A DNA stretch of 64,000 bases. Source: Haloarcula sp. CBA1127. Its GTDB lineage: Archaea > Halobacteriota > Halobacteria > Halobacteriales > Haloarculaceae. The position numbers and the translations under genes were made by a program. The notes beneath the pieces are model-generated. The model searched no databases. It was not told the origin of the DNA and saw only the letters and a list, made by a program, of their open reading frames with translations. The DNA is taken from contig NZ_BCNB01000009.1 in NCBI RefSeq assembly GCF_001485575.1, positions 1 through 64,000 on the forward strand, read 5' to 3'. Positions 13,149 to 57,135 of this stretch are shown here, piece by piece (the first letter of the stretch is position 1; the number at the start of each line of letters is the position of its first letter).

Positions 13149-13178
13149 AATCGGTATGCGGCACGTCCTCCGTGGGAC

Positions 13179-13198
13179 GCGCCTCACCCCGCTGGGGC
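13179..13198 (-). promoter_or_regulatory. hairpin leader copy, GC type with mismatch
   Basis: On the minus strand, AATTTCTGT, GCCCC, loop AGCGGGGTGA, GGCGC. One stem pair is lost compared with the copy at 12580. The ATG is at 13148. Confidence 0.6.
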
Positions 13199-13205
13199 AC
13201 AGAAA

Positions 13206-14243: not shown

Positions 14244-14261
14244 CCTCTCACCCGCCAGAGG
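14244..14261 (-). promoter_or_regulatory. hairpin leader copy before 14243 unit
   Basis: On the minus strand, ATTTTGTGT, TCCTCT, loop GGCGGGTG, AGAGG, then directly the ATG at 14243. The first A of the ATG can extend the stem. Confidence 0.75.
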
Positions 14262-14447
14262 AACACAAAATGGGGGTTGCTACCGCTGTGACTGGAGTTT
14301 TATGCTTACTGTGCTGGCTGAGATACCTGCTCAATAAAACTGCAAGTTGCCCGGCTTTTAGACATATATTTTGGCAGATTCAAGTCATTAGCTGGCGGCT
14401 CGTGGCGAGATACAGTAAAAATACGGCTGCATCCATACGTGAGCACT

Positions 14448-29150: not shown

Positions 29151-30503
29151 CTACTCAGCCGAGAAAGCCTCAATGGCATATTCCTCAGCCAACTCCACGA
29201 CATCATAGACGTGAATCCCCGATTTGAACCATAGCACGCGGTCGTCCATCCCGTCGAAATCCGCAGACGAACAGTCTAATCGCTTAGACACAGCGACAAT
29301 GAGATTATCTCGGTTTGCCTCGCGTATCTTCGCCAACTTCTCAGCAAGGTACTCTGGTGTCCAGAAGCCAACAATCTCGAATATAACTCGCCGGCCGTCT
29401 GGATGTTCGATGGCGAAGTCTGGGAGCATAACCTCCGCACCTAAATCCAGCACGTCATCCTCTCGTATGAGTTCCCAATCCGTGTTCGCGCGCTCCCACT
29501 TCTTGGCAAGTGTCCGTTCCACATCAGAGTCGAAGTCGCTCTGCGCAGCGTAGTGTGAAGACAGGTCGTCAGTGTCATCAAGCGCAAATGAAAGCGTTTG
29601 AGTCGTCGATCCACCCCCATCATCCAGAATGTCGGCCTCCATCTCCCACCGATCACATAACGGCAGTGCTGGCAGAAAGTTCGCCATCCGTATCCCATAC
29701 TTCCGCGATTTCGAAAAGAGGGACGCCGCCCCATCTAGCGTAGCTTTGTATCCGTCTGCTGCATCGGTACTCCCCACGCGATTGCCGTTGCTGTCGATTG
29801 GATAGATACGGTGCATCAACCCGAACAACTTCACGTAACTGAATACCGTCGCAAACGAGTCCCAGACTCGCACCCGCATCTCGGTCGCATCGTAGAGGAC
29901 AGCCTGTGCTAACGCGAGATTATAGCGAGTGAGAAGCCAGTCAGGCGTAATTGTATCCGCTGCATATGATTCCTCACTATCACCCGTCAGTTGAGTCGTG
30001 GTTGAGGACTCCGCCGCATCTTGGCATTCATCGGAAGCACGGTGTCCAAACCGAACAAGTCGTTTGTGTTCCTCCAAGTCGGCGTACATTCCCTGGTGGC
30101 ACTCTTCGAGTGTGATACCCAGCACATCAGCAACGGAACTGTACACTTCTAACTTCTGCGTATCCTCACCGAGCGTGGGCTGGCGAACAATCGGATACGA
30201 CTCATTTGCCTTCTCGAACAATCGCTGACGAATCTCATGTGGCTCAACTGGAGCAACCGTCTCGAACTCACACTCATCTTTCAGCAGTTTCGCCAGTCCT
30301 TGGACGACTTTGTAGTCCGTATCTGCGATGGTGAGTTGGTCAATAGTGTCCTCCAGATCACCTTTCGGTTCACCGAGATGGGCCTCAAAAATCTGAATGA
30401 GTTCCTCGGCTGTCTCCCGATACTGCTGCTCGCTGGCGTCAATGAACAGCGGCGTGATAGTGTCCTCGTGTGTCCGTGAGCGTGCAAGATTAGCTGTCAG
30501 CAT
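29151..30503 (-). CDS. Bax1-like nuclease (DUF790), partner of XPB (450 aa)
   Basis: The C-terminal domain has the PD-(D/E)xK arrangement: LPDFAIEHPDGRRVIFEIVG followed by EYLAEKLAKIREA. The N-terminal and middle parts (about residues 20-260) match the DUF790/Bax1 layout, including LLTRYNLALAQAVLYDATEM. Bax1 forms a helicase-nuclease complex with archaeal XPB that opens and cuts DNA. The ATG at 30503 overlaps the XPB stop by 14 bases, so the two are coupled and nearly certainly form one complex. Confidence 0.75.
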   Translation of the reverse strand: MLTANLARSRTHEDTITPLFIDASEQQYRETAEELIQIFEAHLGEPKGDLEDTIDQLTIADTDYKVVQGLAKLLKDECEFETVAPVEPHEIRQRLFEKANESYPIVRQPTLGEDTQKLEVYSSVADVLGITLEECHQGMYADLEEHKRLVRFGHRASDECQDAAESSTTTQLTGDSEESYAADTITPDWLLTRYNLALAQAVLYDATEMRVRVWDSFATVFSYVKLFGLMHRIYPIDSNGNRVGSTDAADGYKATLDGAASLFSKSRKYGIRMANFLPALPLCDRWEMEADILDDGGGSTTQTLSFALDDTDDLSSHYAAQSDFDSDVERTLAKKWERANTDWELIREDDVLDLGAEVMLPDFAIEHPDGRRVIFEIVGFWTPEYLAEKLAKIREANRDNLIVAVSKRLDCSSADFDGMDDRVLWFKSGIHVYDVVELAEEYAIEAFSAE

Positions 30504-31899
30504 TCGCTGCCACCCCCTGTCGTCGCTGCTCAGAGACATATGTTTCCACCGTGTCTTCAGCAATAATCTCGTAGAGACGGGCGGGTTGCCTGTCGTCTGT
30601 CGGTCGGAGAATCCGACCTAGCCGTTGCGCATACTGCCGTTTTGAGGCACTTCCAGAGAGAATAATCCCGACATTTGCAGAGGGGACATCAATCCCTTCG
30701 TCCAGTACCTGTGACGTAGCCAACATCGAGTACTCACCCGTTCGAAACCGCTCCAATATCTCTGTACGTTCGTCAGTCTCAGTTTGATGGGTGATGCAGG
30801 GCACGACGAACTCTTGGGAGATCTCGTACGCGAACTCGTTATTGGCGGTGAAAATAATGGTTCGGTCGTTGTAGTGTCGCTTCAGCAGATTGTCGAGCGT
30901 ATCCAGTTTCTTTGCAGCAGTACGGGCGATGTTTTCCGCCCGTTGCTTGGCAATAAGCGCCCGTCGTCCCTGCGGGTCATACGACGTGCGTTTGAGGAAC
31001 TCCTGATATCCGTTCTCCTTCCAGAGCTCGAAATCGTGGCTATCCACGTAGTCACGGTATATCTGGTACTCCTCGTCGTACGTTGTCCGTTCCTCGTCTG
31101 TGAGTTCGACTTGGAGATGAATGGTCTCGTATTCGCTGAGATACTCTCCAGCAAGTTCATCAACCGCCTCGCGATAGACAACCGTTCCAAGCAAGTCCTC
31201 TAATTCTTCGTGTGCTCCATCGGCACGCTCGTACGTAGCTGTGAGTCCAAGTCGATACGGTGCAATCGTCATCTCAGGGATCTGCTGATATGTCGGCGCT
31301 GGTAGGTGGTGTACCTCGTCTACAACGAGAAGCCCGAACTGATCCCCATACTCGTTGATATAGCGGTAGGCAGAGTCGTAGGTCGTCACCGTGATGTCCG
31401 CTATATTATGGCTACCACCACCGAGAACGCCCACGCTGTCTGGAAGCTGGTCACCGAAAGCGTTGGTGAGAGTCGCGTGCCACTGGTTCATCAGGTCGAT
31501 GGTTGGCACAACCACGAGCGTACTCACGCCTGCGTCTGCAATGGCTTGGACAGCGAGGAACGTTTTCCCACTCCCTGTCGGAAGGATAACACTCCCCTGT
31601 CGGCCATTGTCCTGCCACGCCGAGAGAGCGTCTTGCTGGTACTCCCGTGGTTCGATAGCGACAGACGGTGTGAGATAGAAGTCTGAGTAGGCACGAGCGT
31701 CGTCCTCTATCTCATCAACAGTCGCTGTGGATTCTTCGAGGGTCGCTTGTCCATCGGACTCGGTTGCCCACTTTCGGATAGGACGATAGTGCTGTGCCTG
31801 CGCCCGATACTCGCCGACGCGATCATCCCATTCGGCATACGGCACAGCGTCAGGAGCGTCTTCAAGCAAAAGCGTGCCATCATCGAATGAGAGACGCAT
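30490..31899 (-). CDS. XPB-like SF2 DNA helicase (469 aa)
   Basis: Helicase motifs appear in order: Walker A LPTGSGKTFL (about residues 106-115), DEVHH (about 194), LTATYERADG (the archaeal XPB RED-like region) and the C-terminal motifs with LATSQVLDEGIDVPSANVGI and QRLGRILRPTDD. An N-terminal damage-recognition-like domain precedes them. Archaeal XPB unwinds DNA with Bax1 in repair. Here the pair lies beside a defence operon on a mobile element, so a role against foreign DNA is possible. It starts at 31899, MRLSFDDGTL. Confidence 0.85.
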   Translation of the reverse strand: MRLSFDDGTLLLEDAPDAVPYAEWDDRVGEYRAQAQHYRPIRKWATESDGQATLEESTATVDEIEDDARAYSDFYLTPSVAIEPREYQQDALSAWQDNGRQGSVILPTGSGKTFLAVQAIADAGVSTLVVVPTIDLMNQWHATLTNAFGDQLPDSVGVLGGGSHNIADITVTTYDSAYRYINEYGDQFGLLVVDEVHHLPAPTYQQIPEMTIAPYRLGLTATYERADGAHEELEDLLGTVVYREAVDELAGEYLSEYETIHLQVELTDEERTTYDEEYQIYRDYVDSHDFELWKENGYQEFLKRTSYDPQGRRALIAKQRAENIARTAAKKLDTLDNLLKRHYNDRTIIFTANNEFAYEISQEFVVPCITHQTETDERTEILERFRTGEYSMLATSQVLDEGIDVPSANVGIILSGSASKRQYAQRLGRILRPTDDRQPARLYEIIAEDTVETYVSEQRRQGVAANADS

Positions 31900-33815: not shown

Positions 33816-36800
33816 CTACGATGACGAATTTGTTGATTTGTTTCGGTTTTCGAGAAATCGATTACACCAAGATGGTAGATCATCCATCGGTCCACTCTCA
33901 GTAACGGTACCATCGTTGGTGATCCGAGTGAACACACCATCTCGTCCCCAGCCACACACCAGTGGTTTTAATCCTTGACCTGGTCGGGTTGCGATTTGTT
34001 GGTCAAACCGCACTGGTTCTTTACTCACGTCCTGTAGTACTGTGAGAAGTTGCCCGAGAAGTGGGTGCCCCGGCGCAAGATGCTGAACAGATGGGTATTC
34101 ATCAGCACACTCCGCCGAGAAAGTCACCGCTACGTCGTCAACAGCAGGCGCAATAGCCTGTGCAATCGTCTGTTCCCCATCCCCGACGGGAACCTCAATC
34201 AGTGCATCACCTACTGAGAGGCGATATGTACTGTCCGCAAAGTCAAAGTCCCCGTCATCGTACTCGAAATTAATCTCGTGAACCGGGGTGAATTTAATAC
34301 CGGCCTCGGAAAGCGCATCGTTATCGACTAACACTGACTGAAGACCCGGTGTCTCGAACGGTGGATCGTACTCGTATCCGTCTTCCCCGACCTCAACGAG
34401 GTCTGGGTGGCAGTAGGATTGCCACGCATCGAGTTTCGCTTCATCAATGACATCCTGTGCTACGAGATCGTCAACGTCCTCAAGAGACTCGCCAACATCA
34501 ACGCGGTCGTCCTGCTTCTGGTTTTCAATTTCCTCTGATAACTGTTTATCTGCTTTTTCAACAGTCTCTCGACTCTCATCAGAATCGGCGTTTAGCGTAG
34601 CGTCTCGAATCTGTTGGCTGACGCCCGAGAGAATGGGTTGCATTTCTCCCACGACGTTTTCGAAGAGGCCGATTCGGTCGTCAAGACGGTCGTAAATGTC
34701 TGTCTCGACAGTATCTTCATAACTGTAGTTGAGAATCGTGACCTCGTCATACCGTTGTCCGATACGGTCGATTCGGCCGATACGCTGTTCGACCCGCATC
34801 GGATTCCATGGAAGGTCGTAGTTGATGAGTGCGCCACATTCCTGTAAATTCAGGCCCTCGCTGGCTGAGTCAGTACAAACAAGAATATCGACCTGCCCAT
34901 CATCGTTAGCGAATTCTCGCTTGACACGCTCTTTACCGACAGTCGTCCAGCCCTCACTGTCAAGGTCATACATCTCGCCACCGCGGCCAGAATATGTCGC
35001 GACCGTCGCACCATGAATGGATGTCAGGCTGTTTCGAATGAAGTCCATCGTATCGGCGTACTGTGTGAAGATAATGACCCGATTGTGTCCCTCACGGTCC
35101 AGTTTTCCAAGGTCGCTGATGAGTTGACTGACCTTCGGATCTTCGTCGATATGCTTGAGGTCATTCACGAACGACTCCAGTTCCTCGATTTCCTGCTCAA
35201 GCAGATTGATTCCTTGGTCAGTGACACTCGGAACAATCTCGGCGAGGTCGGCGTCTTCGAGGTCACCACTGATTTCATCAATCGTATCGAGGTCATCCAG
35301 TTCGTACTCAGAGAGGGTTTCCAAGAGGGTCTGGCTGGAGTTACCTTGGGAGTCATTACGATTGGCAGCACGCTGTTTGCCCTTCAGCACGGTCCGCTGA
35401 GCGCGAAGCGTTTCGAGACGACTTTGCAGGCTCTGTGAAATCGCGTAGACACTGCTCGTAAGGCGCTGTCGGTAGGTCGTCATCACGAAGCCGATAGCCC
35501 TCGTCTCAGCCTCGTCGGACTGCTGAGCGAGCTTGTAGAACTTCCGAGTGTACTCGTCAATGCGGTCGTAGACATCTCGAGTTTCGTCTGTTAGTTCGAT
35601 CTTCCGCTGCTTCGGGTTTCGATCCGGGACTGTCTCATCCAGCAATCCGACTTTTTCGTACTTGCGCAAAGTGTCGCGCGTATTCCGATGAATGAGCGCA
35701 TCGACAGGCGTGGATTCTGCAAGGACGTCTCGGACGACTCGCCAACCAGCTTCTGAGAGATCGTCAAGGGCACTGAGTTGATCATTCCGCGAGTAAGTTA
35801 GCCACTCTTCCTCAGCCTTCCAGTCTGGGTAGAGAAGGTACTTGAGCTTCTCGTCCTCATTGGCTTCGAACGGGTCGACGTTGTACTCCCGAACTGCAGT
35901 TTCGAAACGCTCGACATACCCGTCGTACTGGTCGCCGTGGTCTGAAGCGAGATGGCACGCTTCGAGCACGCGCTGTTTGGCGATTCCGCGTGCGTGCTGC
36001 TCATCGGCGACATCAAGTTTCTCCGCGGCAGCGTCGAAGACCCTATCGGAGAGTGCTCGCTCATTTGGTAGCCGATCCTGATACCGCTGTTCGTCTAACG
36101 TGGCTTGTGCCGACCATGCTCCTCCTGATGACGCTGCATCGCTTTCGAATTGTTCTTTCAATGCCTGGTTGAGAGCCTGGCGGGTCTCAAAGAACTCGAC
36201 GAACCGGTCTTTCTTGTCCCAATCGCCGGGGAGGTCAAGCAATGTCATCAGGTCGTAGAGCTCGCCAGCGTGCAGCTGCATCGGCGTCGCCGTCAACAAG
36301 TAGTACGTCTGGGTGTGTTCACGAAGCCGCTCAAGGAGTGTATAGAACTTGCTACCGGAGCGGGCGTTGTGTGCTTCATCGATGATGACTGCGTCCCAGA
36401 CACCCTCTCGGCTGGATGTATCCCGCCCGCGTGCACTCGCTGGAACGTCTTCGCGAGTACGTACGTCGCCTTCGTCGCGCGGGGCAACCTGATTCCAACG
36501 GTCGTCAAGCCTGGCAGTATGCCACGACATGATGACGATCGATGGAGCGTCAGTTTGGTTGTCGGACTGCTGATCATAGAGGAATCGCCAAATCGGACTC
36601 GCGACCCACGCTTTCGAATGTTCGTCAGCATCAAGATCGAGGCTGCTAGCCGAGGGTGGAGCGTGTTCACGGCCGAACGCATCATGGAAGGCGTACTGGT
36701 TCCCGCTTCCCCGATCGAAACGGTAAGCGTTGATATTGAACTTCTCCCAAAGCTCCTCTTGCCACTGAATCGTCAGGCTTGCGGGAACAAGGAGGAGACC

Positions 36801-37751
36801 GGTTTCCAGATCATCTGTCAGCCCAAGCCGAGAGAGCGTCAGTCCAGCCTCGATTGTCTTCCCGAGCCCGACCTCGTCGCACAGGAGGAAACTATTCGGG
36901 TATGTGTTGACAAGTGTGTCTGAGACGACGCGCTGGTGGGGCCAGGGTGTGATCGTACTACCCTCTTCAGCGAGGGCCAATCCGCCAGGAGCGAGCGAGC
37001 CGTCTGCGATGATGTTCGCTTTGTCGCGCTCGGTTGGTGGCGCTTCGCCGCGTGCAATCTGGATAGCAGAATCTATCTCAGTATCCGAATCGGGAGCCTT
37101 CCAGTCGATAATCTCCTCTTCGATAGCCCTGGGAAGATTGTAAACTTCGACGTAAGGATGATTGTTGTCCCAGAGACGGTCGAACGTGTCGACATCGCCC
37201 TTGACGTATTCGCGCTGTCCATCACGCCACTCACGGTGGACCTTGAACCGCTCATAATTGCGCTCCCAGCCGCCTGCAGTTTCGTTGACGCTGCCCTCGA
37301 ACGACAGCAAGTTCTCCTGATCGTCGTGAAAGATGCCGACTTTCGGATGGAAAATACCCCAGTTTCCTTGCCGAGGCACAGCGACCTTGATTGTGAGTCG
37401 GTCTTCTCGAAGAAGTTGAGCGAGGAGTTGGAGTTGGGCGTCAAGCCGCTCATCGTCGAGTTCATCGAGACCCTCGCTGAGTTCGTCCGAGAGAGCTTCC
37501 AAAACGGGGCGGTCGGTCTCGTACAGTTCCGCACCGACGATAAGTCGCATCTCTCCATCGTTTTCTACGAGTGCATGGACGCCGCGGGCCGCAACGGCGA
37601 GGGCACTGCTCGAGAAGTAGCCTGCCACACGGTCGTACCGAACGCTTCGTTCGAGGGCAGGGACGTAGAATTCATCAACAAGATGAGACCCGCTTGTTGA
37701 GGGCTGGCTCTCGTAAATAGAGTCCCAAGAATATGTCTGAAGGTCAGCCAT
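33816..37751 (-). CDS. helA: PLD-SNF2 fusion helicase, HelA type (1311 aa)
   Basis: The N-terminal phospholipase-D-like nuclease domain has HPK (residues 135-137) and GSVNET (153-158). A long SNF2-type helicase follows: Walker A DEVGLGKT (about 292-299), DEAH (458-461), and the C-terminal lobe with IIFTQYADTMDF, LNLQECGALINYD and EQRIGRIDRIGQ. This is the architecture of the helicase found with DUF1156, DUF499 and DUF3780 in anti-phage gene sets, and it resembles DrmD/DrmC parts of DISARM. It is the last gene of the operon beginning at 45764. Confidence 0.85.
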   Translation of the reverse strand: MADLQTYSWDSIYESQPSTSGSHLVDEFYVPALERSVRYDRVAGYFSSSALAVAARGVHALVENDGEMRLIVGAELYETDRPVLEALSDELSEGLDELDDERLDAQLQLLAQLLREDRLTIKVAVPRQGNWGIFHPKVGIFHDDQENLLSFEGSVNETAGGWERNYERFKVHREWRDGQREYVKGDVDTFDRLWDNNHPYVEVYNLPRAIEEEIIDWKAPDSDTEIDSAIQIARGEAPPTERDKANIIADGSLAPGGLALAEEGSTITPWPHQRVVSDTLVNTYPNSFLLCDEVGLGKTIEAGLTLSRLGLTDDLETGLLLVPASLTIQWQEELWEKFNINAYRFDRGSGNQYAFHDAFGREHAPPSASSLDLDADEHSKAWVASPIWRFLYDQQSDNQTDAPSIVIMSWHTARLDDRWNQVAPRDEGDVRTREDVPASARGRDTSSREGVWDAVIIDEAHNARSGSKFYTLLERLREHTQTYYLLTATPMQLHAGELYDLMTLLDLPGDWDKKDRFVEFFETRQALNQALKEQFESDAASSGGAWSAQATLDEQRYQDRLPNERALSDRVFDAAAEKLDVADEQHARGIAKQRVLEACHLASDHGDQYDGYVERFETAVREYNVDPFEANEDEKLKYLLYPDWKAEEEWLTYSRNDQLSALDDLSEAGWRVVRDVLAESTPVDALIHRNTRDTLRKYEKVGLLDETVPDRNPKQRKIELTDETRDVYDRIDEYTRKFYKLAQQSDEAETRAIGFVMTTYRQRLTSSVYAISQSLQSRLETLRAQRTVLKGKQRAANRNDSQGNSSQTLLETLSEYELDDLDTIDEISGDLEDADLAEIVPSVTDQGINLLEQEIEELESFVNDLKHIDEDPKVSQLISDLGKLDREGHNRVIIFTQYADTMDFIRNSLTSIHGATVATYSGRGGEMYDLDSEGWTTVGKERVKREFANDDGQVDILVCTDSASEGLNLQECGALINYDLPWNPMRVEQRIGRIDRIGQRYDEVTILNYSYEDTVETDIYDRLDDRIGLFENVVGEMQPILSGVSQQIRDATLNADSDESRETVEKADKQLSEEIENQKQDDRVDVGESLEDVDDLVAQDVIDEAKLDAWQSYCHPDLVEVGEDGYEYDPPFETPGLQSVLVDNDALSEAGIKFTPVHEINFEYDDGDFDFADSTYRLSVGDALIEVPVGDGEQTIAQAIAPAVDDVAVTFSAECADEYPSVQHLAPGHPLLGQLLTVLQDVSKEPVRFDQQIATRPGQGLKPLVCGWGRDGVFTRITNDGTVTESGPMDDLPSWCNRFLENRNKSTNSSS

Positions 37752-37804
37752 CAGTGAGCTTACTTGATTATCTCATTCTGAGGCTACTTAATCACTCCAG
37801 TCGG

Positions 37805-38755
37805 TCAGCTGTCGTCCATATCTGGAACAAGGGTTAGATCGTCCAAATCTGCGAGAACATCGGCGACGAGTCGGTCGGCGAGGTTCAGCCCCAATCCTAC
37901 CGCTATCTGGACTGCTTCGACGTAGGTCCCGAACGTGTCCAAGGTAACCGTTCTCCCTCGTGCTGTCATCGAGTGGGAGAGTTCATTCCGCGCATCCCGC
38001 AGTGTGTCGTCCAGAACGTCCAGTTCGATATTCTCTGGAGCGAGGCCCTCATCTCGAAGCCATCCTATAACCTCATCAAGCCGGGTGTCATCCAGTTCTG
38101 AGTCGACTCCTGTCGCGAGTTCTTTCACTGTGACTGCCCCCACCTCTTCGACCATCGCTGCGCTGGTCAGAACAGCAACCAGTAGCGGCGGGTGGGCGAT
38201 GTAACTGAACATCTCTGACCCGTACTCTTGGAGGTAACGAGATTCGTCATCCTGGAGATGGGCCGCTAGCTCATCTGCTTGCCAGAGACTTTCACTAATC
38301 CACTGGATCCACATCGATGTCTGAAGCGAGAACTCAATTCGGTCCCGTAGCTCTCGTGAATGTCGAAGCCAGCGACGTGACAAGAGTTCGTAGTCGGTTT
38401 CATTCCCGAACGTCGCCCGTTTTCGGCACGCATCTATCGACGTGGTGAACTCCTCAAAGGTCGACTCAAAGTTTCTGAGAAGATCCGCGACCTGCCCGAT
38501 TCCCCAGCTGAGCCGAACAGGTAGCGCATCCAAGACTTGCCCATCAGATGAACGACGGCGTTCGAGGTCGGTCTCGTACACCGACACGGCTGAATTATGC
38601 ACCTGAAGGCAATACTGGAACCGCTGCCAACAGAGTTCGATAATCGCGGCATGCCACTGACCGTCAGGAAGAGGAACACGAAGCTTCGTCGGCGACCCAT
38701 CACCCTGCTCCCCGAGAGTGAGGTGAACCGCAGTGAGGTCGCCGAACGCTCGCAT
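37805..38755 (-). CDS. unknown protein of the defence operon (316 aa)
   Basis: The protein is all-helical looking, with segments YCLQVHNSAVSVYETDLERR, DACRKRATFGNETDYELLSR and LDEVIGWLRDEGLAPENIEL. I do not recognise a known domain. It sits between the DUF1156 methyltransferase (5-base gap) and the helicase (53-base gap) on the same strand. It may be an accessory or target-recognition subunit. It is the least understood member of the operon. Confidence 0.6.
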   Translation of the reverse strand: MRAFGDLTAVHLTLGEQGDGSPTKLRVPLPDGQWHAAIIELCWQRFQYCLQVHNSAVSVYETDLERRRSSDGQVLDALPVRLSWGIGQVADLLRNFESTFEEFTTSIDACRKRATFGNETDYELLSRRWLRHSRELRDRIEFSLQTSMWIQWISESLWQADELAAHLQDDESRYLQEYGSEMFSYIAHPPLLVAVLTSAAMVEEVGAVTVKELATGVDSELDDTRLDEVIGWLRDEGLAPENIELDVLDDTLRDARNELSHSMTARGRTVTLDTFGTYVEAVQIAVGLGLNLADRLVADVLADLDDLTLVPDMDDS

Positions 38756-38760
38756 TCGGC

Positions 38761-41604
38761 TTAGTGCTCCCCGAGCGTGCTCTGCGTCGTCTCGTTGCCG
38801 TCTTCTGCGAAGACGTTGGGGTTGAAGTCAAGGTCCAACGCGTCGCTCGTCCGGCCGACGGCAAGGTCCCGAGCAAATTCCCAGTCCTCGTGGTTGTGCG
38901 GAAGCACCTGGAGCAAGGCTTTCAGCGTCGCCTTGAACTGGCTGTCCGAGTCGAAGTTGCGTTCTCGAAGCCACTCGATGGTCTCGGTCTCGCCACGCTT
39001 GGCGTAGACGTGCATCGCGGCGTGGACGGCGTCCAGCGAACGCGGGAACGAGAGGTCGTCAGGGTCAACCGGCAGACGACTGGACCGGTCTTCGGGCTTT
39101 TCGTTGATGTTCTGCACGCGGCCGTCGTGTCCGCGGAGGCTGATGTCGCCGCGGCTCTTGCGCCAAGTCTTCGTCGACCGCTTGATTTCGTCGATGTCGA
39201 CGCCGATTCCGAGGCCGAGTTGGCGACCGTCGTCATAAGAGAATGTCTCGGCTTCGTGGACGAGCCAACAGAGGATATACCACTCTGTAACATCGTCTAG
39301 AATGTCGACATCCATCCCTTCCAGATATTCGTCGACGAGGATTTGGGTCACAGCCTCCCGTGCGGTTTCAAGGGCTTTCCGCGGAGGGACCTCCTCGTCC
39401 TGATCGTCGACAACAGGATAGGCGTCGGCGAAGACCCGAAGCGTCGGGCCGAACGCAGAGATGATGACGTCGGTCTTAGTCAGAGAGATACCAGATTCAA
39501 GGAGGTCACGAGCCGCTTCTTTCGCGGCATTTCGTGTGTCCGCCTCGACGTCGCTCCAGAGTGTAGGGATTGCGTTCTCAGTATCGCGTTCTTCGTGAGG
39601 CTTACGGCCTGTTAGTAAGAGAGTTGAGTCTGCAGATGCACTACTCCTCATGTTTGCCCTTTGTGGCATCTCGCTCGTAATTGGATGAGTAGAAGTGATG
39701 ACGAAACCTGAGTTGATGAGCGACTTAGCCAAAGTATCCCATGCATCGGTCTCTTTGTGAGTGAACATAACTGTCATTACGCCACCCGATGACAGCTGGT
39801 TGTAAATATTTGAGAATATCTCGCTCATCTTATTCTCATAGAATTCATTGGCAAGTTCCTTCTTTGAATTGGAACTACTGGAGACGCTATCAAATCTCTC
39901 CGGGTTAGCTACCGCCTCGTTCTCTTTATCGGTTAAACCATCTGAGAACAGTTCTGGGTGTACGTCACCAAGGTACTTCTTTAGCCATCCATAGAAGACA
40001 TCAGCGAGTTCAGAATACATGATGCTGCTATAGTAAGGGGGGTCAACGACCGCTGCTTGGATTTCGCGGCCGGTCGTCAAGTCGGCGGCATCTTCGTTGG
40101 TAATAGTCGCCGGCTGGCTACCCTCTGGAAGATACGAGACGAGTTCCTCATATGAATCACGGACTTTCTCGTATAGAGAGTTGAAATCCATCGTACCAAG
40201 CAACGGATTATTATCGCAAAATACCCTAGTGAATACTAGAATATTCCCCTTGAATACTGGGTTTGGGTAGCCTTTACTTGTGTCCCAGTCTGCAAGTCGC
40301 GCATTTCGGTCAATAAATTTGCTACACGCAAGAGAAAGAACTGAAAGAATCGCCTCTGCCTCATTTTCTTCATGTTCTCGTAATATCTCGGGCTTATAGT
40401 GGTTAAACGCCTGAAGGTATTCGTAGTGCGAAATTAATTGCCGAGGTGAAAATAGGTCTCTAAGTTCTGTAACGCCATAGGGGACTGCTCGGTCAGCGTA
40501 CCCCTCGAATCGCTCAACAGAGAGGATTGTGGAGAGTTCATAATCATTCTCTACGCGCTCTTTCGCTAACTCAAGTGCTTCTCGATCCGTCTGGTTCGGT
40601 GCTCGGAAGCCAGATTTACCATTGCTATCAATGTATCTAACGCAGTAAATCTCGTACTCAAAGTCGTTATTTTTGAACTTCTCTCTGATTGTATCCCCCT
40701 CCGTAACGACGTTACAGTGAGGGCAATCAGCTTCACCACCCCTATCAACAAACCCATCGTTAGGTTCGAAATCATCGAGATCGGGATGATTAAGATCGGT
40801 ATAGCAGCGATACGAAACAGTCCGGTCATCCTCTATTTTTGGCTTGACAACTGCGCTCCCAGATTTTATTGTCCATTTTGGAATCAGAGGAATGTCACCG
40901 CCACACTGTGGACACTCTACACGATATGACGTGACATATATGTCTGGGCTCTGGCCAGACTCTGATTCTGGATAGAGTTCCTCGAGATTATTGCGCGCTC
41001 GGTCATGAATTTTGTCGGCCCAATAATCAAGATCAGAACCAAGAGAACCGGCGGTAGGTGCATACTGAAGAAGGACCTTAAGAATCAGTGACGGTACCGG
41101 ATTTAGCTCGTTTGCGCTTGTTGGGAGTTCATAACGAATGGATTCGAATGGAATCACTCCACCGCCAGCTGTCGGATCAAGGATAGCTGGCAGTTCGCCA
41201 TCCCATTGATTACGAAGGAGTGAGTGGAGTTCTTTTGTCTCAGACGGGCTAGGAGACTGCGTGAAAGGACGGGGATACCCATAGTGTTCCCCAAGCGTTC
41301 CATTCCGCTCTGATTCAGTTGCCTTCTTCCTCTCAACATACTCAGATAGTCCGCTATCCAGTTCTTTTGGCCCGATCTGCATCCATTGCAGTAATTCGTC
41401 TGAGGAAACATCTTGAGGTAGAACCGATGCAAGAATCGCCAGTCTTGAAGCAGGAGTAGGTCGCCGCGCGAACCACGGATGAAGATAGCGGTGTGGCGGC
41501 ATATGCTTTGGATTCCCTTCCTTCAAGTTCTCAATACCAACTGCCTTCAGCGGAAGCTGTCCTTCGATAGCGAGCGGTTTCAGATCGTCGTTGTGTTCAC
41601 TCAT
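38761..41604 (-). CDS. DUF1156 DNA adenine methyltransferase with zinc ribbon (947 aa)
   Basis: The SAM-binding motif I appears as ILDPTAGGGVIPFESI (about residues 141-156). The catalytic motif DPPYYSS is near residue 526. A zinc ribbon CPQCGGDIPL...CPHC lies near residues 235-300. The opening HMPPHRYLHPWFARRPTPAS is the DUF1156 signature. Proteins of this COG1743 type modify adenine in host DNA in defence sets, so the helicase attacks unmodified DNA. Its ATG overlaps the upstream stop (ATGA). Confidence 0.85.
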   Translation of the reverse strand: MSEHNDDLKPLAIEGQLPLKAVGIENLKEGNPKHMPPHRYLHPWFARRPTPASRLAILASVLPQDVSSDELLQWMQIGPKELDSGLSEYVERKKATESERNGTLGEHYGYPRPFTQSPSPSETKELHSLLRNQWDGELPAILDPTAGGGVIPFESIRYELPTSANELNPVPSLILKVLLQYAPTAGSLGSDLDYWADKIHDRARNNLEELYPESESGQSPDIYVTSYRVECPQCGGDIPLIPKWTIKSGSAVVKPKIEDDRTVSYRCYTDLNHPDLDDFEPNDGFVDRGGEADCPHCNVVTEGDTIREKFKNNDFEYEIYCVRYIDSNGKSGFRAPNQTDREALELAKERVENDYELSTILSVERFEGYADRAVPYGVTELRDLFSPRQLISHYEYLQAFNHYKPEILREHEENEAEAILSVLSLACSKFIDRNARLADWDTSKGYPNPVFKGNILVFTRVFCDNNPLLGTMDFNSLYEKVRDSYEELVSYLPEGSQPATITNEDAADLTTGREIQAAVVDPPYYSSIMYSELADVFYGWLKKYLGDVHPELFSDGLTDKENEAVANPERFDSVSSSSNSKKELANEFYENKMSEIFSNIYNQLSSGGVMTVMFTHKETDAWDTLAKSLINSGFVITSTHPITSEMPQRANMRSSASADSTLLLTGRKPHEERDTENAIPTLWSDVEADTRNAAKEAARDLLESGISLTKTDVIISAFGPTLRVFADAYPVVDDQDEEVPPRKALETAREAVTQILVDEYLEGMDVDILDDVTEWYILCWLVHEAETFSYDDGRQLGLGIGVDIDEIKRSTKTWRKSRGDISLRGHDGRVQNINEKPEDRSSRLPVDPDDLSFPRSLDAVHAAMHVYAKRGETETIEWLRERNFDSDSQFKATLKALLQVLPHNHEDWEFARDLAVGRTSDALDLDFNPNVFAEDGNETTQSTLGEH

Positions 41605-42221
41605 AGGTGGTCAGTCAGCAAGGTCCGCAGTGCTTTTTCGCCGTTCGGGCTGGACGGGGCGCGACACTTTGCATGCCAGTAGTAACACTCCTCGTCGCCC
41701 ATGCTGGCGATTCCGCGACAGAGGGCACGCATCCTGTCGACACGCTGGAGCGGTTTGATGCCGCGGAACGCGAGTGCCAGACGCACGCCAACAGTTTCTG
41801 GGAGGAAAAGGTCACCAGTGCCGCTGGAGGTGACGATTGTGGCATCAAGTTCCGCGCCGTCGACGGTTTCCTTGATGAGCGGAGAGAGGGCGCGGAAGCG
41901 ACCACCGTCGAGACGGGCAATTTTCACGGCCGCCCATCCGTCCCAGTCCCAGCCCGTCGCTTCCTTGGCCGACGAATCATCGAAGACCTCCTCGAAGGAC
42001 TCGACGGTGAGCGAACGCCCGTGGCGTTCGAGCCGATTGCGACGGCTGGCCGCTTGTTCTTCGGGGAGCAGTTCGTACAGCGTGACCTCGCCGCCGTTCG
42101 ACCCTTCGCGGCGCGTCATCGCGAACGTCGGCCGTCCGCCGTAGACACTACTCCCGAAGGAGGACGCTGGCGCGTCCTCGGTCGCCGTGCTGGCTTGCGT
42201 TGAGTCGAGTCCCGTCGTCAT
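41601..42221 (-). CDS. DUF3780-like defence protein (206 aa)
   Basis: The region GWDWDGWAAVKIARLDGGRF, then VRLALAFRGIKPLQRVDRMR and MGDEECYYWHAKC, fits the DUF3780 protein that accompanies DUF1156 and DUF499 in anti-phage gene sets. No catalytic motif is seen; it may be a structural or regulatory subunit. It overlaps both neighbours by 4 bases (ATGA), so expression is coupled. Confidence 0.65.
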   Translation of the reverse strand: MTTGLDSTQASTATEDAPASSFGSSVYGGRPTFAMTRREGSNGGEVTLYELLPEEQAASRRNRLERHGRSLTVESFEEVFDDSSAKEATGWDWDGWAAVKIARLDGGRFRALSPLIKETVDGAELDATIVTSSGTGDLFLPETVGVRLALAFRGIKPLQRVDRMRALCRGIASMGDEECYYWHAKCRAPSSPNGEKALRTLLTDHL

Positions 42222-45200
42222 TGTGTTGCCTCAGAGGGAACTTCGGTCGGTCCTCTGGCTTGAACTTTCACGTCGATATTGGTCTGGCCGAGGCCCGCCT
42301 GTAGTTCTGCGAGCACGTCGTCCTCGGCGTCGGTTATCGGTTCGGGCTCGTCGAGGTCTACACGGAACTTCAGCGTGACGTTGAACGACTCGCCGAACGG
42401 ATCGGGCTGGTTCGTCACGCGCGAGAAGTCGTCGAGACTTCCCTGATAGCTCGCGCTGTAGCTCGATCCCGTCGACGTCTTCACGTCGTAACTCATCCGA
42501 ACCGAGACCGCGTCCGACCGGTCAGTGAAGGCATCCCGCTGAGCGATGAACGAGCCCTTCGAGAGCCGATCCTCGCCCACCACTTCGACCGTGACCTGCG
42601 AGACGCCTGGTGAGCCACCTGAGGCCGCTTTCGAGAGCGCATGGGTTCGCACCTCGTTGAACGCCCGCGACGCCGCCATCTGGCTTGTCGCCGTGTCCCA
42701 GCCCGAGGGCTGAGCGCAGTCGGGGCAGATTCCCTGAGCGTTCAGTTCGCTCTCGTCGTATTTCTCGCCGCAGCTCTGACAACGAGTCTTTTCTGGGGTC
42801 TTCTTATGTTTCTCACAATACGCTGGGCCGTCATCTGAGGCTTCGACCTTCGTCGTACAGCCGTCCTCGGCGCACTCGACTTCGGACGCTTCTGGCGGCC
42901 GAATCGAGTCGTGGTGTACGTCGAGGAGGGCTTCGATACCCGTGTAGATGACGTAGTCGTTCCCGATCTTCACGTCGGTATCCTGAATCGATGTGCGAAC
43001 ATCGGGCGAGTCAGCGAACGGTGTGCGCTTCCGCCAGTTCTCGGGGTGATCGTCGGCGTCGCCGTCCCAGTACGCGATCTGAGTCTCGGCGTCCCAGTAG
43101 GTGTAGCCGCTCTCGTCGACCATCTTCGCGACGGTCTTGCGAAGCGGCTTCGTGCTCAGAAGGTACGGGAGCCCTGGCTTCTTGCCGAACTGCTCGACGA
43201 GTTGCTGCGTCGTCATCGAGTCCTGGGTCCGCTGCCAAAGTTTCTGCTTGAAGAACGCGACACCCTTCGCGTCGGCATCAGCCCGAATCAGGCGATCGTC
43301 GAGGGTTTCCTCGACTGCATTGACGAGCGAGGTTCCGCCGTTCGCCTCGGTCGCGTTGATCGTAATGTGTGTGAGTCCATCGCGGTCGACGTAGTAGAGA
43401 TGACGATAGACCCCACGAACGAGTTCACCGAGCAGACCGTACTTTTCCTTCCGCCGCTGTTTGAGGTCCTCGATCTGATCCCCAGAAAGGTCTGCCGTCT
43501 GCTGAGAGCCATCGAGGAGCGCTTCGATGGCTTCCAAGTGCCGGGCTTCGTCGATGGCACTTCTCACACGCTCGTCGTCTGGAGCGAGGAACAGGACGTA
43601 GTTCTTGTAGACCCGACTCTGGACGTCGCCGCCCTGCTTCGAGGCAGACTTCTGGTACAGCGACTGGACCTTTTCAGGGACGGACTCCGGGTTCGACTCG
43701 TCTTCGAGTAGTTGCTTGGTGACCGGCGCCGTATCCATGTGCATCACGGCAAGCTGGGGCGTCGATGCCTTGTCCGGGAGGTCGGCCGGCGACTCGGGGT
43801 AAGGAACTGGCTCGAACGCACCAGTCCCGGTTTCACTCTCCAGTCGGGCCTCGAATCGTGAGCGCGCCTGCGCGTCTGGTGTATTGTCGACCCGCTGGTC
43901 GATGATCCTGATGAGGTTCGGATCAGATTTGAATCGAACCCGCTCCTCGTCGTAGAGGTAGTAGCACGCGACGCTCATGTCAGATCCCGCCAGCGCATCA
44001 AGGGCCGAGTCGTAGTTATCAAAACGAACGTCCGGGTGACCCAGCGTCTCGTTCATTTCAGCCCGGGTAAGCCCGGTTGCTTGTTCTCCGTAGGCTAGGC
44101 TATGCCATAGAACGGCGGTAGTCAGATGTGAGCCGAGTTCAGGGATGCCTTTTTCTGTCCACTTGCGATCCTCAAGTTGGGCATGGGCCGTCCCGTCATC
44201 GTTGTAGATATCTGCCGAGACAGCCGAACTGAGATCAACAAACTCGAACAACGACTCATGGAGAGTTGAACTGATACTCCCGCTTGGAGCATCGTCAGCT
44301 GGCGTGAGGTCGTACAACCGTACCCAATGGCGCTCGTAATGATCTGGGCGATTATTCCAGCGGTAGTAGACAGCGCGGGCAAGAAGCTTCAGTGCTCCAC
44401 GAGTTCGTTGGAACTTCGGAATCGTGTCGATTTTCTCAGTAAGCGTATCGATAACCGTCGGATGGAACGGATACTCTCGTTCGAGCCGGTCAACGTAACT
44501 CGCGTCCGTCGCTTCTTGGGGGAACTGCCGCTCACTGTTGGAGTACAACTGGAAGTACGACTGGGACACCTCGGCTGCGGCTTCATCGTCGATGTCCTCG
44601 AAGAGACGATGCTGAAGGACCTTCCCAACTTCACTCTCGTCGGTTGGCGTGACCGTTTTGTGCTGGCGACGCCCAATCTGATTGAGTTCGTCGATTAGCT
44701 TACGCACGTCCTCGGCTTCCTCCTCAAAGGCTGTGTCCGCAATCGAGTAGACGATAGTAACATCATCGGACTCAGACGCGGTCTCCAAAAGCGATAGAAC
44801 AAAGCTGAGTGTCTGGCTGGCCAGCGTTGCACCGCCGACCTCAACGGCAGACGCGCTTTCTAAATAGGCAGCAATCTCATCGATGAGGACTAGCGCCGGG
44901 CCGTCGCCGATGTCGAAGAGATCCTTGAGCTTGTTTTGTCCAGGTGCGGTTCGGTTCTGGTCGTACTCCTTCAACTCTTCGTAGCCTTCAGCGCCGTATA
45001 GCTGGTAGGCAATCTCTCCCCACATCGTCTTGCTATTCGGGGCATTGGGGTCGCGTCGATCACTGCGTGCATTCCGGGCGTCGACATGGCCTCCGACAAA
45101 CACAGCTGAGTCGACGGAGAGGCCTTCTTCGACGGCTTCATCATAAGCTTCTGCACTGCTCTCGTCGTCTGGAAGAAGGTGGTCACTGAGGTTGCTGATG

Positions 45201-45544
45201 TCGTCAGCGTGTTCTGCTAAATGGTAAGACGCGATGAGGTCGTGGGTTTTCCCGCCGCCGAAGCGCGTGTCGAGGCAAAGGATGCTGCTTGTATAATCTG
45301 TCTCTTGATTTGTTCCACTTGCAAGGAATCGTCCTGTGAGATTACTCAATAACGTCTTCAAACCCTCAGTGGGGTAGGTCATCTCAAAGAACAGAGAGGC
45401 CTCGCGGTAATTCGGTGCAGCTTTGTTGGGATCGTGGGCAACAGTAGCTAAACTCGCAGCGAACTGGTCCTCTTGTAGTGAGCCATCAAGGACGTCGTTA
45501 CGCGGCTGGCAGGTTTCAAATAACGGCGGAAACTCACTGCTCAT
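42218..45544 (-). CDS. DUF499 AAA+ ATPase (1108 aa)
   Basis: Walker A is LDTRFGGGKTHD (GGGKT at about 96-100) and Walker B is ALVLIDEIAAYL (about 212-223). Late in the chain there are two zinc motifs, CAEDGCTTK...YCEKH and CQSCGEKYD...CPDC (about residues 875-940). It matches COG1483/DUF499 ATPases linked to defence methyltransferases. ATP hydrolysis may drive complex assembly or movement on DNA. The ATG at 45544 overlaps the upstream regulator by 11 bases. Confidence 0.85.
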   Translation of the reverse strand: MSSEFPPLFETCQPRNDVLDGSLQEDQFAASLATVAHDPNKAAPNYREASLFFEMTYPTEGLKTLLSNLTGRFLASGTNQETDYTSSILCLDTRFGGGKTHDLIASYHLAEHADDISNLSDHLLPDDESSAEAYDEAVEEGLSVDSAVFVGGHVDARNARSDRRDPNAPNSKTMWGEIAYQLYGAEGYEELKEYDQNRTAPGQNKLKDLFDIGDGPALVLIDEIAAYLESASAVEVGGATLASQTLSFVLSLLETASESDDVTIVYSIADTAFEEEAEDVRKLIDELNQIGRRQHKTVTPTDESEVGKVLQHRLFEDIDDEAAAEVSQSYFQLYSNSERQFPQEATDASYVDRLEREYPFHPTVIDTLTEKIDTIPKFQRTRGALKLLARAVYYRWNNRPDHYERHWVRLYDLTPADDAPSGSISSTLHESLFEFVDLSSAVSADIYNDDGTAHAQLEDRKWTEKGIPELGSHLTTAVLWHSLAYGEQATGLTRAEMNETLGHPDVRFDNYDSALDALAGSDMSVACYYLYDEERVRFKSDPNLIRIIDQRVDNTPDAQARSRFEARLESETGTGAFEPVPYPESPADLPDKASTPQLAVMHMDTAPVTKQLLEDESNPESVPEKVQSLYQKSASKQGGDVQSRVYKNYVLFLAPDDERVRSAIDEARHLEAIEALLDGSQQTADLSGDQIEDLKQRRKEKYGLLGELVRGVYRHLYYVDRDGLTHITINATEANGGTSLVNAVEETLDDRLIRADADAKGVAFFKQKLWQRTQDSMTTQQLVEQFGKKPGLPYLLSTKPLRKTVAKMVDESGYTYWDAETQIAYWDGDADDHPENWRKRTPFADSPDVRTSIQDTDVKIGNDYVIYTGIEALLDVHHDSIRPPEASEVECAEDGCTTKVEASDDGPAYCEKHKKTPEKTRCQSCGEKYDESELNAQGICPDCAQPSGWDTATSQMAASRAFNEVRTHALSKAASGGSPGVSQVTVEVVGEDRLSKGSFIAQRDAFTDRSDAVSVRMSYDVKTSTGSSYSASYQGSLDDFSRVTNQPDPFGESFNVTLKFRVDLDEPEPITDAEDDVLAELQAGLGQTNIDVKVQARGPTEVPSEATQ

Positions 45545-45764
45545 CTGAACCCTCCAAGCTAGAGGAACCCACTTCCGGCTTGGATACTATCACGAATTTG
45601 TCTTTTGAGCTATTCTCAATGAGGGCTTTTGCGATATCTTTTGATTCAGCAATATCGACTTTTATTCGGTCACCAACCTCAGCGTCGAACTTATTCAGGT
45701 CCGGTCCCGATAAATTTACCCGGCCAGAATTTCCGGTATTCTGTCCTATTGTCTTCTGAGTCAT
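45534..45764 (-). CDS. AbrB-like small regulator, first gene of defence operon (76 aa)
   Basis: The core GQNTGNSGRVNLSGPDLNKF, followed by VGDRIKVDIAESKDIAKALI, resembles the swapped-hairpin AbrB DNA-binding fold of haloarchaeal regulators. It overlaps the DUF499 gene by 11 bases and starts the operon after a TATA-like box (45793-45800). It may repress or activate the defence operon. The C-terminal tail is disordered-looking. Confidence 0.6.
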   Translation of the reverse strand: MTQKTIGQNTGNSGRVNLSGPDLNKFDAEVGDRIKVDIAESKDIAKALIENSSKDKFVIVSKPEVGSSSLEGSDEQ

Positions 45765-52216: not shown

Positions 52217-53869
52217 ATGCAGTCTGGCATTGGTGATGAAATCCTTGAAGAGATTGTCGAGAGGGTGATTGGAGAACTCTCGTCGGCAATTACAGCCGGT
52301 ATGAGTGGTTTCCTTGATGAACTCAGAACGGATGTCGTCGATTACTTCGAGGGGTTCTTTGAGTGGCTTATTGACCCGATGGTAGGCACACCTTCTCCGG
52401 AAGGGCCGAATTCAGCAGCCCCCGTCGACATTGCATTTGAGTCTGCGACTAACGCTCCGTGGGACGCGTTAATCTCGAATATATACTTCGATGCAATCGT
52501 TGGGTTAGCGCTCGGTATCCAGTTTTCTGTTCTGGCGATGATCGGGCTTAGATACGGGTCGATGAACCCAGTCATTCGGAAGAAGCTTCTACGCCGACTC
52601 GGAGTCGCCTTCCTTTCGCTGTTCTTCTGGCTTCCAGTAGCCTCACTCGGAACCCAGTTCTTCGACGCTATCGGTCGTCAGCTCTACGCTTCTGGACACA
52701 CGGAGGCAGAGGCGGTTGCACTAATCAGTTCAGCCCAGCAGATTGCGGATCTCAGCCTTGGGATCTTCGTCGTTCTGATGATCGTTGGACTGTACGTTTA
52801 CCTCAAGGCGGCGTTCATCTTTATCACCAGATGGCTGCTGGTCTTCCTGCTGACCCTGTCGATGCCGCTGGTTGCGACGTTCTGGGCAGTGGAAGTCTGG
52901 CCGCTGAACCGCTTCTCGGGACTGGCGAAACAGGTCGCCGGCGCGTACCCCGGAGTCCTCGCTGCGGGTATCCCGCCTGCAATCCTGATACGCATGAGCT
53001 TTGAAGCGACAAACTGGGGACTGGCTTCTGAGCTGTCCCTGTTTATCAGCCTCGTGACGCTGTACTTGGCGGCAAAGTCTCAGAAGGTCCTCATCCAGCG
53101 GAGTAGCCGCGTGGCAATCCAAGTCAGCGAACAGGCCCTTGCTGGTGGGAAAAAGCCACTCAAGATCGGTGCGGCGGCTGGTGGTGCAGCGGCGACAGCC
53201 GGCGCTGGCGCGGTCGGTGGCCCCGGCGCAGCAATGGCGACGGGTGGCACGATTCGAGCTGCCTCAAGCGCTGCAAAAGGGCGTGTCGGCAGTGCTGCTA
53301 CGGGTGCCCAAATGGTCCACCGCCAGATGGCTGCTAACCCCGCCGGCATGAAGAGCGGTTCCAGCAGCGGCCTCACCGGCTCCGGAGGTGGCGGCAACAG
53401 TGGTTCCGGCGGCGGTGGCTCAGGCGGTGCAGGCGGTTCCGCTCCGCCCTCTGGTGGCGGCAGTGGCAGCAGCGGGTCTGGTGGCTCACCACCCTCTGGC
53501 GGCGGGAGCGGGTCCGGTGGAAGTCCCCTCAACAGCAGGTTCACCAACGGTGGTTCGTCCGGCTCGTCTGGCTCGTCCGGCGACTCTGAGAGCGACGACA
53601 CCCCGGTTAGCGAACGCCAGACGAAGATGGAGCAACAAACCAAGATGGAGCGCCAGACGCAGATCAACTCCGGCGATACCAGAGTGTTCGAGTCTGAGGT
53701 TGACCCGCCGTTCTCCGACGACGACTTCGACGAGAACGATACTGAGACCACTGACTCCGATGAGTCGGAGTCGTATGACTCGCTGCAGGACGTGTTTGCG
53801 ACTGATGACGATGTATTAGGGCCGGATGTGTACCGCGACGGCCTGCCGCATAAGGAGGATGACGACTAA
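52217..53869 (+). CDS. TrbL/VirB6-like polytopic membrane protein (550 aa)
   Basis: About six to eight hydrophobic helices span residues about 90-310, with a long Gly/Ser-rich tail (residues about 310-460, then acidic to the end). This is typical of TrbL/VirB6 channel-platform proteins of type IV secretion systems. The assignment is from topology and operon position; sequence similarity is not visible by eye. It overlaps the VirB4-like start by one base (TAATG). Confidence 0.6.
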   Translation: MQSGIGDEILEEIVERVIGELSSAITAGMSGFLDELRTDVVDYFEGFFEWLIDPMVGTPSPEGPNSAAPVDIAFESATNAPWDALISNIYFDAIVGLALGIQFSVLAMIGLRYGSMNPVIRKKLLRRLGVAFLSLFFWLPVASLGTQFFDAIGRQLYASGHTEAEAVALISSAQQIADLSLGIFVVLMIVGLYVYLKAAFIFITRWLLVFLLTLSMPLVATFWAVEVWPLNRFSGLAKQVAGAYPGVLAAGIPPAILIRMSFEATNWGLASELSLFISLVTLYLAAKSQKVLIQRSSRVAIQVSEQALAGGKKPLKIGAAAGGAAATAGAGAVGGPGAAMATGGTIRAASSAAKGRVGSAATGAQMVHRQMAANPAGMKSGSSSGLTGSGGGGNSGSGGGGSGGAGGSAPPSGGGSGSSGSGGSPPSGGGSGSGGSPLNSRFTNGGSSGSSGSSGDSESDDTPVSERQTKMEQQTKMERQTQINSGDTRVFESEVDPPFSDDDFDENDTETTDSDESESYDSLQDVFATDDDVLGPDVYRDGLPHKEDDD

Positions 53870-56800: not shown

Positions 56801-57135
56801 CGCTGACGATCAAGACGTCGTGGGAAGAGAAGCAGATCATTGACCTCGACGCTGACGCAGAAGATGCGCTCGACGTTGTTGCTCACGAGGCTGACTCCCG
56901 CGCTGCTGATTTCGAAGAGTTCGTACGCTCGAAGGCAGTCGAGCAAGAGCTAGCGACTCGTGGATTGTCCCCGGAGAAGGCTGAACACGTCCTTAACGGA
57001 CTCAGCGAAGACGAGTTGGTGGACGTGGTGTCTGTAGCACTTGACCAGACACAGCCAGAAGCAGTTGTCGCTGACGGTGGTATCGAGGCAGAGACTGATA
57101 CGGAGTTTGACACTACGGAGAATTCAAATGAGTGA
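53869..57135 (+). CDS. virB4: VirB4-type ATPase with VirB3-like N-terminus (1088 aa)
   Basis: The N-terminal part has two membrane helices (ELILFLIPPFGFLVAMGMPF and FVPAALFFPTLALTAVVEVF), resembling VirB3. The C-terminal ATPase has Walker A MPGGGKTHG (about residues 617-625) and Walker B EIIIDEAHYLF (about 863-873), plus ARHQRHAGLRLVMLSQTLSE as motif 3. VirB4 is the conserved motor of all conjugation systems. Fusion of VirB3 and VirB4 is known in other systems. The end overlaps the next gene by 8 bases. Confidence 0.85.
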   Translation: MADSEEEYNTNIIHESLGDSTNFWGDYTLGELILFLIPPFGFLVAMGMPFVPAALFFPTLALTAVVEVFLYILHKVRPDHYRLTEWLRVKLFWLVKKRQYTHGQGNQDTRQVTRLERVMPHGIERVDGAYVGAVEVEPANMSLQDDEKWDKAVKSLTRLSESLTGRAKLHVTTAEVDNESHIQAHVDRLDDPDAESHSIFRGVLMEFVNRYTDDSGNVETETELQRKYYIVVWVTDDDIHDLQMNSDSIADYLTGIPVIGRLFTRFDSDTLTDAEREEFKAKKLHDRLETVDRAVNNMFRCRSRSVSPHELAHLTEDYWACETRSEREYEEAASVSPVTYSARELIKHGEGAAAHDAAEGMDTDDVGGTDYEVDETDFVSQLHRPGENHRSLVAPTDIEWEADHALIDQETHARCFWIETYPEHPTSGMLEQLLLDTDLAVDVSIHIDPYDADTAVSVMKEWISSLKMLQNDKGELEAEDIEQEVNQAKYIRQMVRRNHTSLFRVGAFIRLTAETEEDLRKQTNRLETLLRDSPSNCGVKRTTRRQEAGLVTVSPIGANELGQNRLSSMTGEALGSLFPFSSNYLRMEDGIEYGLHGHNDSSLLIDPWELETGHSELVTGMPGGGKTHGTQARAMRMLKKRSDVKQIYIDPVGDMHGSAKMLDAKTITISGETPLNPCEMHPTPPHVLEQSPDMQPVSAKKDEVYGVIENFLQSRDVDLEMHSGLITFLIDKIFTESDIDPADPSTHTPENSPDLSDFLEVVDRLQEEPGMFPGATTESSQQKIQQYANELSIALHPFRPGSTFGNLSKESDLRLIDDSSKAVYLDLQQVEGSGSGLGKQSFIMQLLLSTLYQQAKNMQQKVEIIIDEAHYLFNDDANLESLNQIARHQRHAGLRLVMLSQTLSEFEDKGAAEEIAGMCPIKVHHREPELGDETATSAGLTDEQQSYIQHAEAGKESLGDGQGYSQALVRVDEHGDYPLTIKTSWEEKQIIDLDADAEDALDVVAHEADSRAADFEEFVRSKAVEQELATRGLSPEKAEHVLNGLSEDELVDVVSVALDQTQPEAVVADGGIEAETDTEFDTTENSNE

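Follow-up and report, generated by a model that had tools for sequence, protein, structure and literature searches.

A probable DUF7680-containing, restriction-modification-like antiviral operon related to BREX-related Type-2 systems on a Haloarcula plasmid

The DNA analysed here, referred to as the window, comprises the first 64,000 nucleotides of contig C9 (NZ_BCNB01000009.1) of Haloarcula sp. CBA1127, and the feature under study is an operon of six genes on its minus strand (33816-45764). The operon lies on a Haloarcula plasmid of ~102 kb and, by homology, probably encodes a restriction-modification-like antiviral system, a DUF7680 branch that is sister to the Type-2 group of the DUF499-centred BREX-related (BR) systems. 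BR Type-2 systems with DUF3780 were published in 2026 (PMC12839542). The more unusual points of the operon are the likely HEPN identity of an orphan protein of 316 amino acids, a cargo slot between the methyltransferase and helicase genes, and an apparent swap of specificity in the methyltransferase. Its genes, from first to last, are the following:

45534..45764, minus strand: small protein of 76 amino acids, first gene of the operon
42218..45544, minus strand: DUF499 AAA+ ATPase of 1108 amino acids (HmaC/BrxC-like)
41601..42221, minus strand: DUF7680 protein of 206 amino acids, in the DUF3780 position of Type-2 BR systems
38761..41604, minus strand: DUF1156 DNA methyltransferase of 947 amino acids
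37805..38755, minus strand: orphan of 316 amino acids, predicted HEPN-domain RNase (residues ~140-305)
33816..37751, minus strand: HKD (PLD-type) nuclease and SNF2 helicase of 1311 amino acids

Operon layout and core proteins

The six consecutive genes overlap or almost touch, and the coordinates and single-operon arrangement given by the earlier note were confirmed. The 76-residue gene overlaps the DUF499 gene by 11 bp, the DUF499 and 206-residue genes overlap by 4 bp, as do the 206-residue and methyltransferase genes, and the two remaining gaps measure 5 bp (from the methyltransferase stop to the 316-residue gene) and 53 bp. The plasmid location proposed at the same time holds as well. Contig C9 is 116,842 bp long and very probably represents a circular plasmid of ~102.3 kb left untrimmed, since its first 14.5 kb recurs at its end (window 1-14510 versus contig 102317-116842) with 99.86% identity, differing by indels only. 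Plasmid genes of the Orc1/Cdc6, ParA and TrwB/VirD4 types were found on it by family matches.

Regarding the core proteins, the DUF499 protein matched PF04465 (4.3e-31, 108 bits, cut-off 23) and the PADLOC model HmaC (2e-87); it presents the Walker A motif FGGGKTH common to bacterial members and CxxC pairs near its C-terminus, and no HEPN domain was detected in it with Pfam. The methyltransferase matched PF06634 (DUF1156; 1.9e-7, 31.5 bits, above the cut-off of 24), HmaB (2.2e-49) and, over its full length, phrog_10183 of PHROGs (1.3e-215). Its motif I (DPTAGGG) lies near residue 143 and DPPYY at 521, and two CxxC pairs (231 and 294) fall inside the predicted target-recognition insert. The helicase matched the Pfam families SNF2 (9e-15) and Helicase_C (3.4e-18) as well as PADLOC PLD_Helicase (1.4e-69) and HmaA (3.8e-61), and it carries HPKVGIF...GSVNET at 135 and DEAH at 458. 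The DUF7680 and DUF3780 helicases that were examined share the corresponding HxKxG...GSxN motif, which both HEPN-type1 helicases lack.

The NCBI models of the anti-phage DUF499/DUF1156/PLD set gave 210 of 1200, 146 of 1000 and 340 of 1100 bits, respectively, all under the curated cut-offs, so the operon is, by its sequences, a divergent relative of that catalogued set. The earlier note had listed four catalogued anti-phage proteins: the DUF499 protein, the DUF1156 methyltransferase and the PLD/SNF2 helicase stand, below the NCBI cut-offs, and the fourth, DUF3780, is replaced by DUF7680.

The first gene is conserved: in 28 further haloarchaeal loci a homologue with 63-81% identity directly precedes DUF499, in most cases overlapping its start. 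With 29 loci in all, it is a real operon member in this clade. Its proposed AbrB-like nature was not borne out, as no AbrB-type match appeared in Pfam, NCBIfam or PDB sequences even at E<10, a search in which a protein this short may be missed.

DUF7680 and the place of the operon among known systems

The 206-residue protein had been read as DUF3780. This identification was rejected by profile, as the Pfam family found was PF24728 (DUF7680) at 2.4e-38, and remote homology between the two families was not significant against 60 shuffled controls. To evaluate the context of DUF7680, ~20 kb around each place where it occurs was examined in a sample of 391 haloarchaeal genomes. It was present in 64 genomes and in 32 of 86 genera, and every one of the ~65 loci with enough flank shows the order DUF499, DUF7680, methyltransferase, helicase. 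Since all these loci keep the same ordered neighbours, the gene order and co-occurrence of the four-gene core are far beyond chance. The DUF3780 model PF12635 gave no match in the 391 genomes, and the control genomes gave none either. DUF3780-annotated operons do occur in bacterial plasmids; plasmids of Rhodococcus and Nostoc have DUF7680 as the gene that separates DUF499 from DUF1156, and the Aminobacter counterpart aligns with them. In the plasmid of Nostoc sp. ATCC 53789 (L132:11650-13767), ThiF and multi-ubiquitin-domain genes are inserted between the DUF7680 and DUF1156 genes, which raises the question of a ubiquitin-like defence.

In trees of the methyltransferase and of the helicase, with two HEPN-fused Type-1 systems as root, the DUF7680 systems of bacteria and haloarchaea fell together, with the DUF3780 systems beside them and both apart from the HEPN-fused Type-1 systems. 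Support for the DUF7680 clade was 1.0 in the helicase tree and 0.80 in the methyltransferase tree; in the DUF499 tree the bacterial and haloarchaeal DUF7680 systems do not form an exclusive group.

A serious competitor, although we lean against it, is that DUF7680 is simply DUF3780 in a diverged form, the operon then being a regular Type-2 BR system and not a branch of its own. Both proteins share the operon position and a similar length, and their profiles align collinearly over the full length, the C-terminal motifs matching as well (EEcYYW / EERWW, KALRxLLT / RKAxRxALTE). Moreover, the 2026 survey, with its 119 archaeal Type-2 taxa, may have counted DUF7680 and DUF3780 together (PMC12839542). 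Nevertheless, the profile-profile score was not above that of column-shuffled controls, 5 of 60 scoring higher, the DUF3780 model matches none of the haloarchaeal genomes sampled, and the two kinds of system separate in the helicase and methyltransferase trees. The DUF7680 model (pLDDT 87.4) has four main strands and a helical C-terminal half; DUF3780 is likewise described as a four-stranded sheet with five helices (PMC12839542). Comparisons with this model gave no viral match and no solved relative, the highest structural Z being 5.8 over 67 residues, and a literature search returned no mention of DUF7680.

The sister-branch placement agrees with the comparison to known systems. With BR Type-2 (PMC12839542) and the NCBI anti-phage set the operon shares the order DUF499, small protein, DUF1156 methyltransferase and HKD-SNF2 helicase. 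The DUF499 AAA+ ATPase, the DUF1156 amino-methyltransferase with its target-recognition insert and the N-terminal HKD fused to SNF2 that define Type-2 are present, with the same helicase architecture and active-site motif. It differs in carrying DUF7680 instead of a standalone DUF3780, in its separate clade in the methyltransferase and helicase trees, in its scores under the NCBI cut-offs, and in having a conserved small front gene and a HEPN cargo in the slot. Since DUF3780 was not found in it, the operon strictly speaking falls outside Type-2 BR, and it very probably works like such a system. In Hma (PADLOC; PMC8565338), HmaA, HmaB and HmaC correspond to the helicase, methyltransferase and ATPase at the E-values given above, which are model matches only, system rules aside; here, however, there are in addition DUF7680, the front gene and the cargo, and the helicase fits PLD_Helicase better than HmaA. 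BR Type-1 (PMC3710099, PMC12839542) likewise combines a DUF499/DUF1156/SNF2 core with a HEPN RNase, but here the HEPN protein is separate, in the slot, rather than fused to DUF499, and the Type-1 helicase has a C-terminal PD-(D/E)XK nuclease instead of an N-terminal HKD. BR Type-3 and BREX have PglZ in the locus, whereas no PglZ was found among the operon proteins; the sole PglZ match of the genome is elsewhere, on contig C1:236394. Near that gene (G000:C1:229737-236891) there is a further SNF2-type helicase match, possibly belonging to a BREX or BR Type-3 system.

Lastly, DISARM was rejected and we regard it as extremely improbable: the helicase scores against DrmD models and is the only operon protein matching a DISARM model, but it scores higher against PLD_Helicase models, reaches 266 of the 610 bits of the DrmD curated cut-off, and the operon has no drmA/drmB-type gene. 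The likeness to DISARM in logic that the earlier note had drawn extends to the shared SNF2 helicase and nothing further; the published parent group is that of the DUF499-centred BR systems (PMC12839542).

The slot between methyltransferase and helicase and its HEPN candidate

The clade of the window was defined as the loci whose DUF499 is ≥69% identical (n=19). In 17 of them the methyltransferase and helicase genes are 0.7-6 kb apart, versus ≤186 bp in all 45 other haloarchaeal loci. Since these loci share ancestry, the presence of cargo in the slot is a clade trait and not 19 independent events. In five loci the contents include an SF1 helicase, MkoA-like according to PADLOC. Further contents are an HsdR_N protein bearing an MCM OB domain, Nmad3 together with a partner protein, a PHP-AAA protein that comes close to PADLOC Ppl, DUF3800, an AAA_16 protein and non-defence genes. 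In Halobacterium salinarum pHSAL2 an AAA-domain gene of similar size occupies the slot; the DUF1156 methyltransferase of this locus (L109:8992-12268) is annotated as separate fragments and is possibly broken. The SF1 helicase of ~740 amino acids is a recurrent cargo (L038, L041, L044, L052, L063, L109), and in all of these except L063 a small protein of unknown family, encoded on the opposite strand, comes next. The junction holds further genes in bacteria: VapC, HigB and other toxin-antitoxin genes in cyanobacterial DUF7680 operons, and VapC in a canonical DUF3780 operon.

The 316-residue gene is one of many such alternative cargos. Compared with L052, the DUF499 protein of the window is 89% identical and the cargo differs, being the putative HEPN gene in one and the SF1 helicase with other genes in the other. 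Homologues were found in five other genomes, four of them at the same position, one being that of Halobium salinum, which was recovered from GTDB contigs as well. Hence, of the two extra genes for which conservation had been expected, the front gene is conserved in 29 loci and the 316-residue gene occurs in only five operons, the window included, spread over four genera. The fifth homologue (~30% identical) is away from any BR core and lies near a C5 DNA methyltransferase and a 1421-residue SF1 helicase-nuclease (L104:9380-18516), a neighbourhood which suggests that the family works with other restriction systems too.

The slot could be merely a tolerated insertion site, with the 316-residue protein having no functional tie to the core, and we consider this possible but doubtful. 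Part of the cargo is encoded on the other strand or does not resemble defence genes, for example a TauD dioxygenase (L047) and a probable membrane protein (L055), and the distant homologue stands outside any BR core. On the other hand, the 316-residue gene is co-directional, follows the methyltransferase stop by 5 bp and keeps its place in all five operons, and several co-directional slot genes with a family match are of defence or nucleic-acid type.

The earlier note had described the 316-residue protein as an unknown between methyltransferase and helicase. Its position stands, and no known family was found for it in Pfam, NCBIfam, PHROGs, PADLOC or PDB sequences; from its conserved motif and its structure model we now read it as most likely a HEPN RNase. 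This assignment is drawn from three observations. First, R256, N257 and H261 (RN-x3-H) are invariant across six homologues, down to 30% identity, while only ~18% of positions are invariant overall. In the all-helical model the motif ends the helix 245-264, ahead of a long last helix, a position that fits the Rx4-6H site placed at the end of helix 3 by the HEPN review (PMC3710099). Second, residues ~140-300 align with HepT/HEPN toxins and the Csm6 HEPN domain with Z up to ~10, HepT-type chains aligning over their whole length, and about one third of the best 50 rows are HEPN or HEPN-like. Third, the only Pfam matches of the distant homologue are HEPN_MAE_28990 (0.0043) and HEPN_Apea (0.016), sub-threshold and over the motif. 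Like the HEPN toxins (HepT/MntA family, Csm6 HEPN, MAE_28990, Apea), the protein has a similar predicted fold with RN-x3-H before the last long helix; it differs in its long N-terminal helical region and in belonging to none of the named families. Beside it, no antitoxin gene was recognised.

Several points speak against the HEPN assignment. The model has a pLDDT of 71.5 and was built from six sequences, a structural Z of ~10 is not decisive against a background of helical bundles, plain Foldseek against PDB returned nothing below E 0.1, and the protein of the window has no HEPN match of its own in Pfam. A helical regulator or scaffold without catalytic function within the complex would fit the first ~140 residues, which are long helices with no assigned fold. 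Nevertheless, the invariance of precisely the catalytic-motif residues and the structural matches to HEPN toxins and Csm6 make a scaffold rather unlikely.

The methyltransferase itself has a mosaic identity. Against two operons whose ATPase and helicase are 94% and 90% identical to those of the window, its residues 51-600 are only 40-78% identical, mostly 40-60%, and 86-100% afterwards; against an operon of another family (G030), the same residues are 82-100% identical, with ATPase and helicase lower overall. The G030 methyltransferase is 94% identical to that of the window, and the Haloarcula halophila one 70%. Such a mosaic would be expected from an exchange of the target-recognition part between systems or lineages. 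Solo viral methyltransferases as counter-defence were considered and rejected: the five relatives in IMG/VR share only ~30% identity, and at least three of them are accompanied by the remaining system genes; for the other two the set of genes found was incomplete, one being cut by the contig end. A pattern search confirmed no relatives of the 316-residue or DUF7680 proteins in viral contigs.

As a speculative extension, to which we give limited credence, the junction around the methyltransferase could be a dedicated exchange slot. The core of DUF499, DUF7680 and methyltransferase would drive interchangeable second effectors (HEPN RNase, SF1 helicase, HsdR-like nuclease, PHP-ATPase, PIN toxins) and the methyltransferase specificity would be exchanged independently, with recognition and effector both swapped between lineages.

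Outside the operon, an XPB-type helicase and DUF790 (Bax1) pair lies downstream on the same strand (window 29151-31899, minus). The genes at window 53869-60940 (plus) probably serve conjugation or DNA transfer; they encode a coupling ATPase of the TrwB/VirD4 type and a large protein that matches AAA weakly.

Proposed mode of action and role

The published BR model assigns self-marking to the methyltransferase, the sensing of unmarked DNA to the DUF499 complex and the effector role to the HKD-SNF2 protein (PMC12839542). On the basis of this model and of homology, the DUF1156 methyltransferase would mark self DNA at a sequence picked by its zinc-finger insert. The DUF499 ATPase with DUF7680 would scan the DNA and detect an unmarked site, and the SNF2 motor with its N-terminal HKD nuclease would then degrade the unmarked DNA. 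By analogy, DUF7680 may take the place proposed for DUF3780, as a reader or assembly subunit. Standalone HEPN backups have been reported in BREX/BR loci (PMC12839542), and the 316-residue protein could similarly be an accessory backup RNase that would cleave RNA and arrest the cell should the response at the DNA level fail. The defence function with self-marking suggested by the earlier note is supported by homology to the DUF499, DUF1156 (with DPPY) and HKD and SNF2 families. Two points count against it: the PLDc_2 match of the helicase (3.8e-4) is below the Pfam cut-off, and we infer the activities from homology (methylation and its base, DNA cleavage, RNA cleavage, the antiviral effect), as we do the role of DUF7680, a family with no known one.

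The operon might instead be mainly a plasmid addiction or exclusion module (restriction-modification plus RNase) and not an anti-viral defence of the cell, which we judge unlikely. The operon and many of its relatives are on plasmids, and cyanobacterial relatives carry toxin-antitoxin pairs within the operon. However, it is also found on large chromosomal contigs (e.g. G006:C1, 2.96 Mb), and related helicases have reported anti-phage activity (PMC12839542). The addiction and defence roles are compatible.

A previously unannotated haloarchaeal operon, present in about 1 in 6 of the haloarchaeal genomes sampled, is now placed beside the BREX-related Type-2 family. DUF7680 thereby gains a genomic context, and an orphan protein gains a likely, predicted enzymatic activity. 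Moreover, these operons provide a natural series of apparent effector and specificity swaps on a constant core, which is testable in cultivable haloarchaea.

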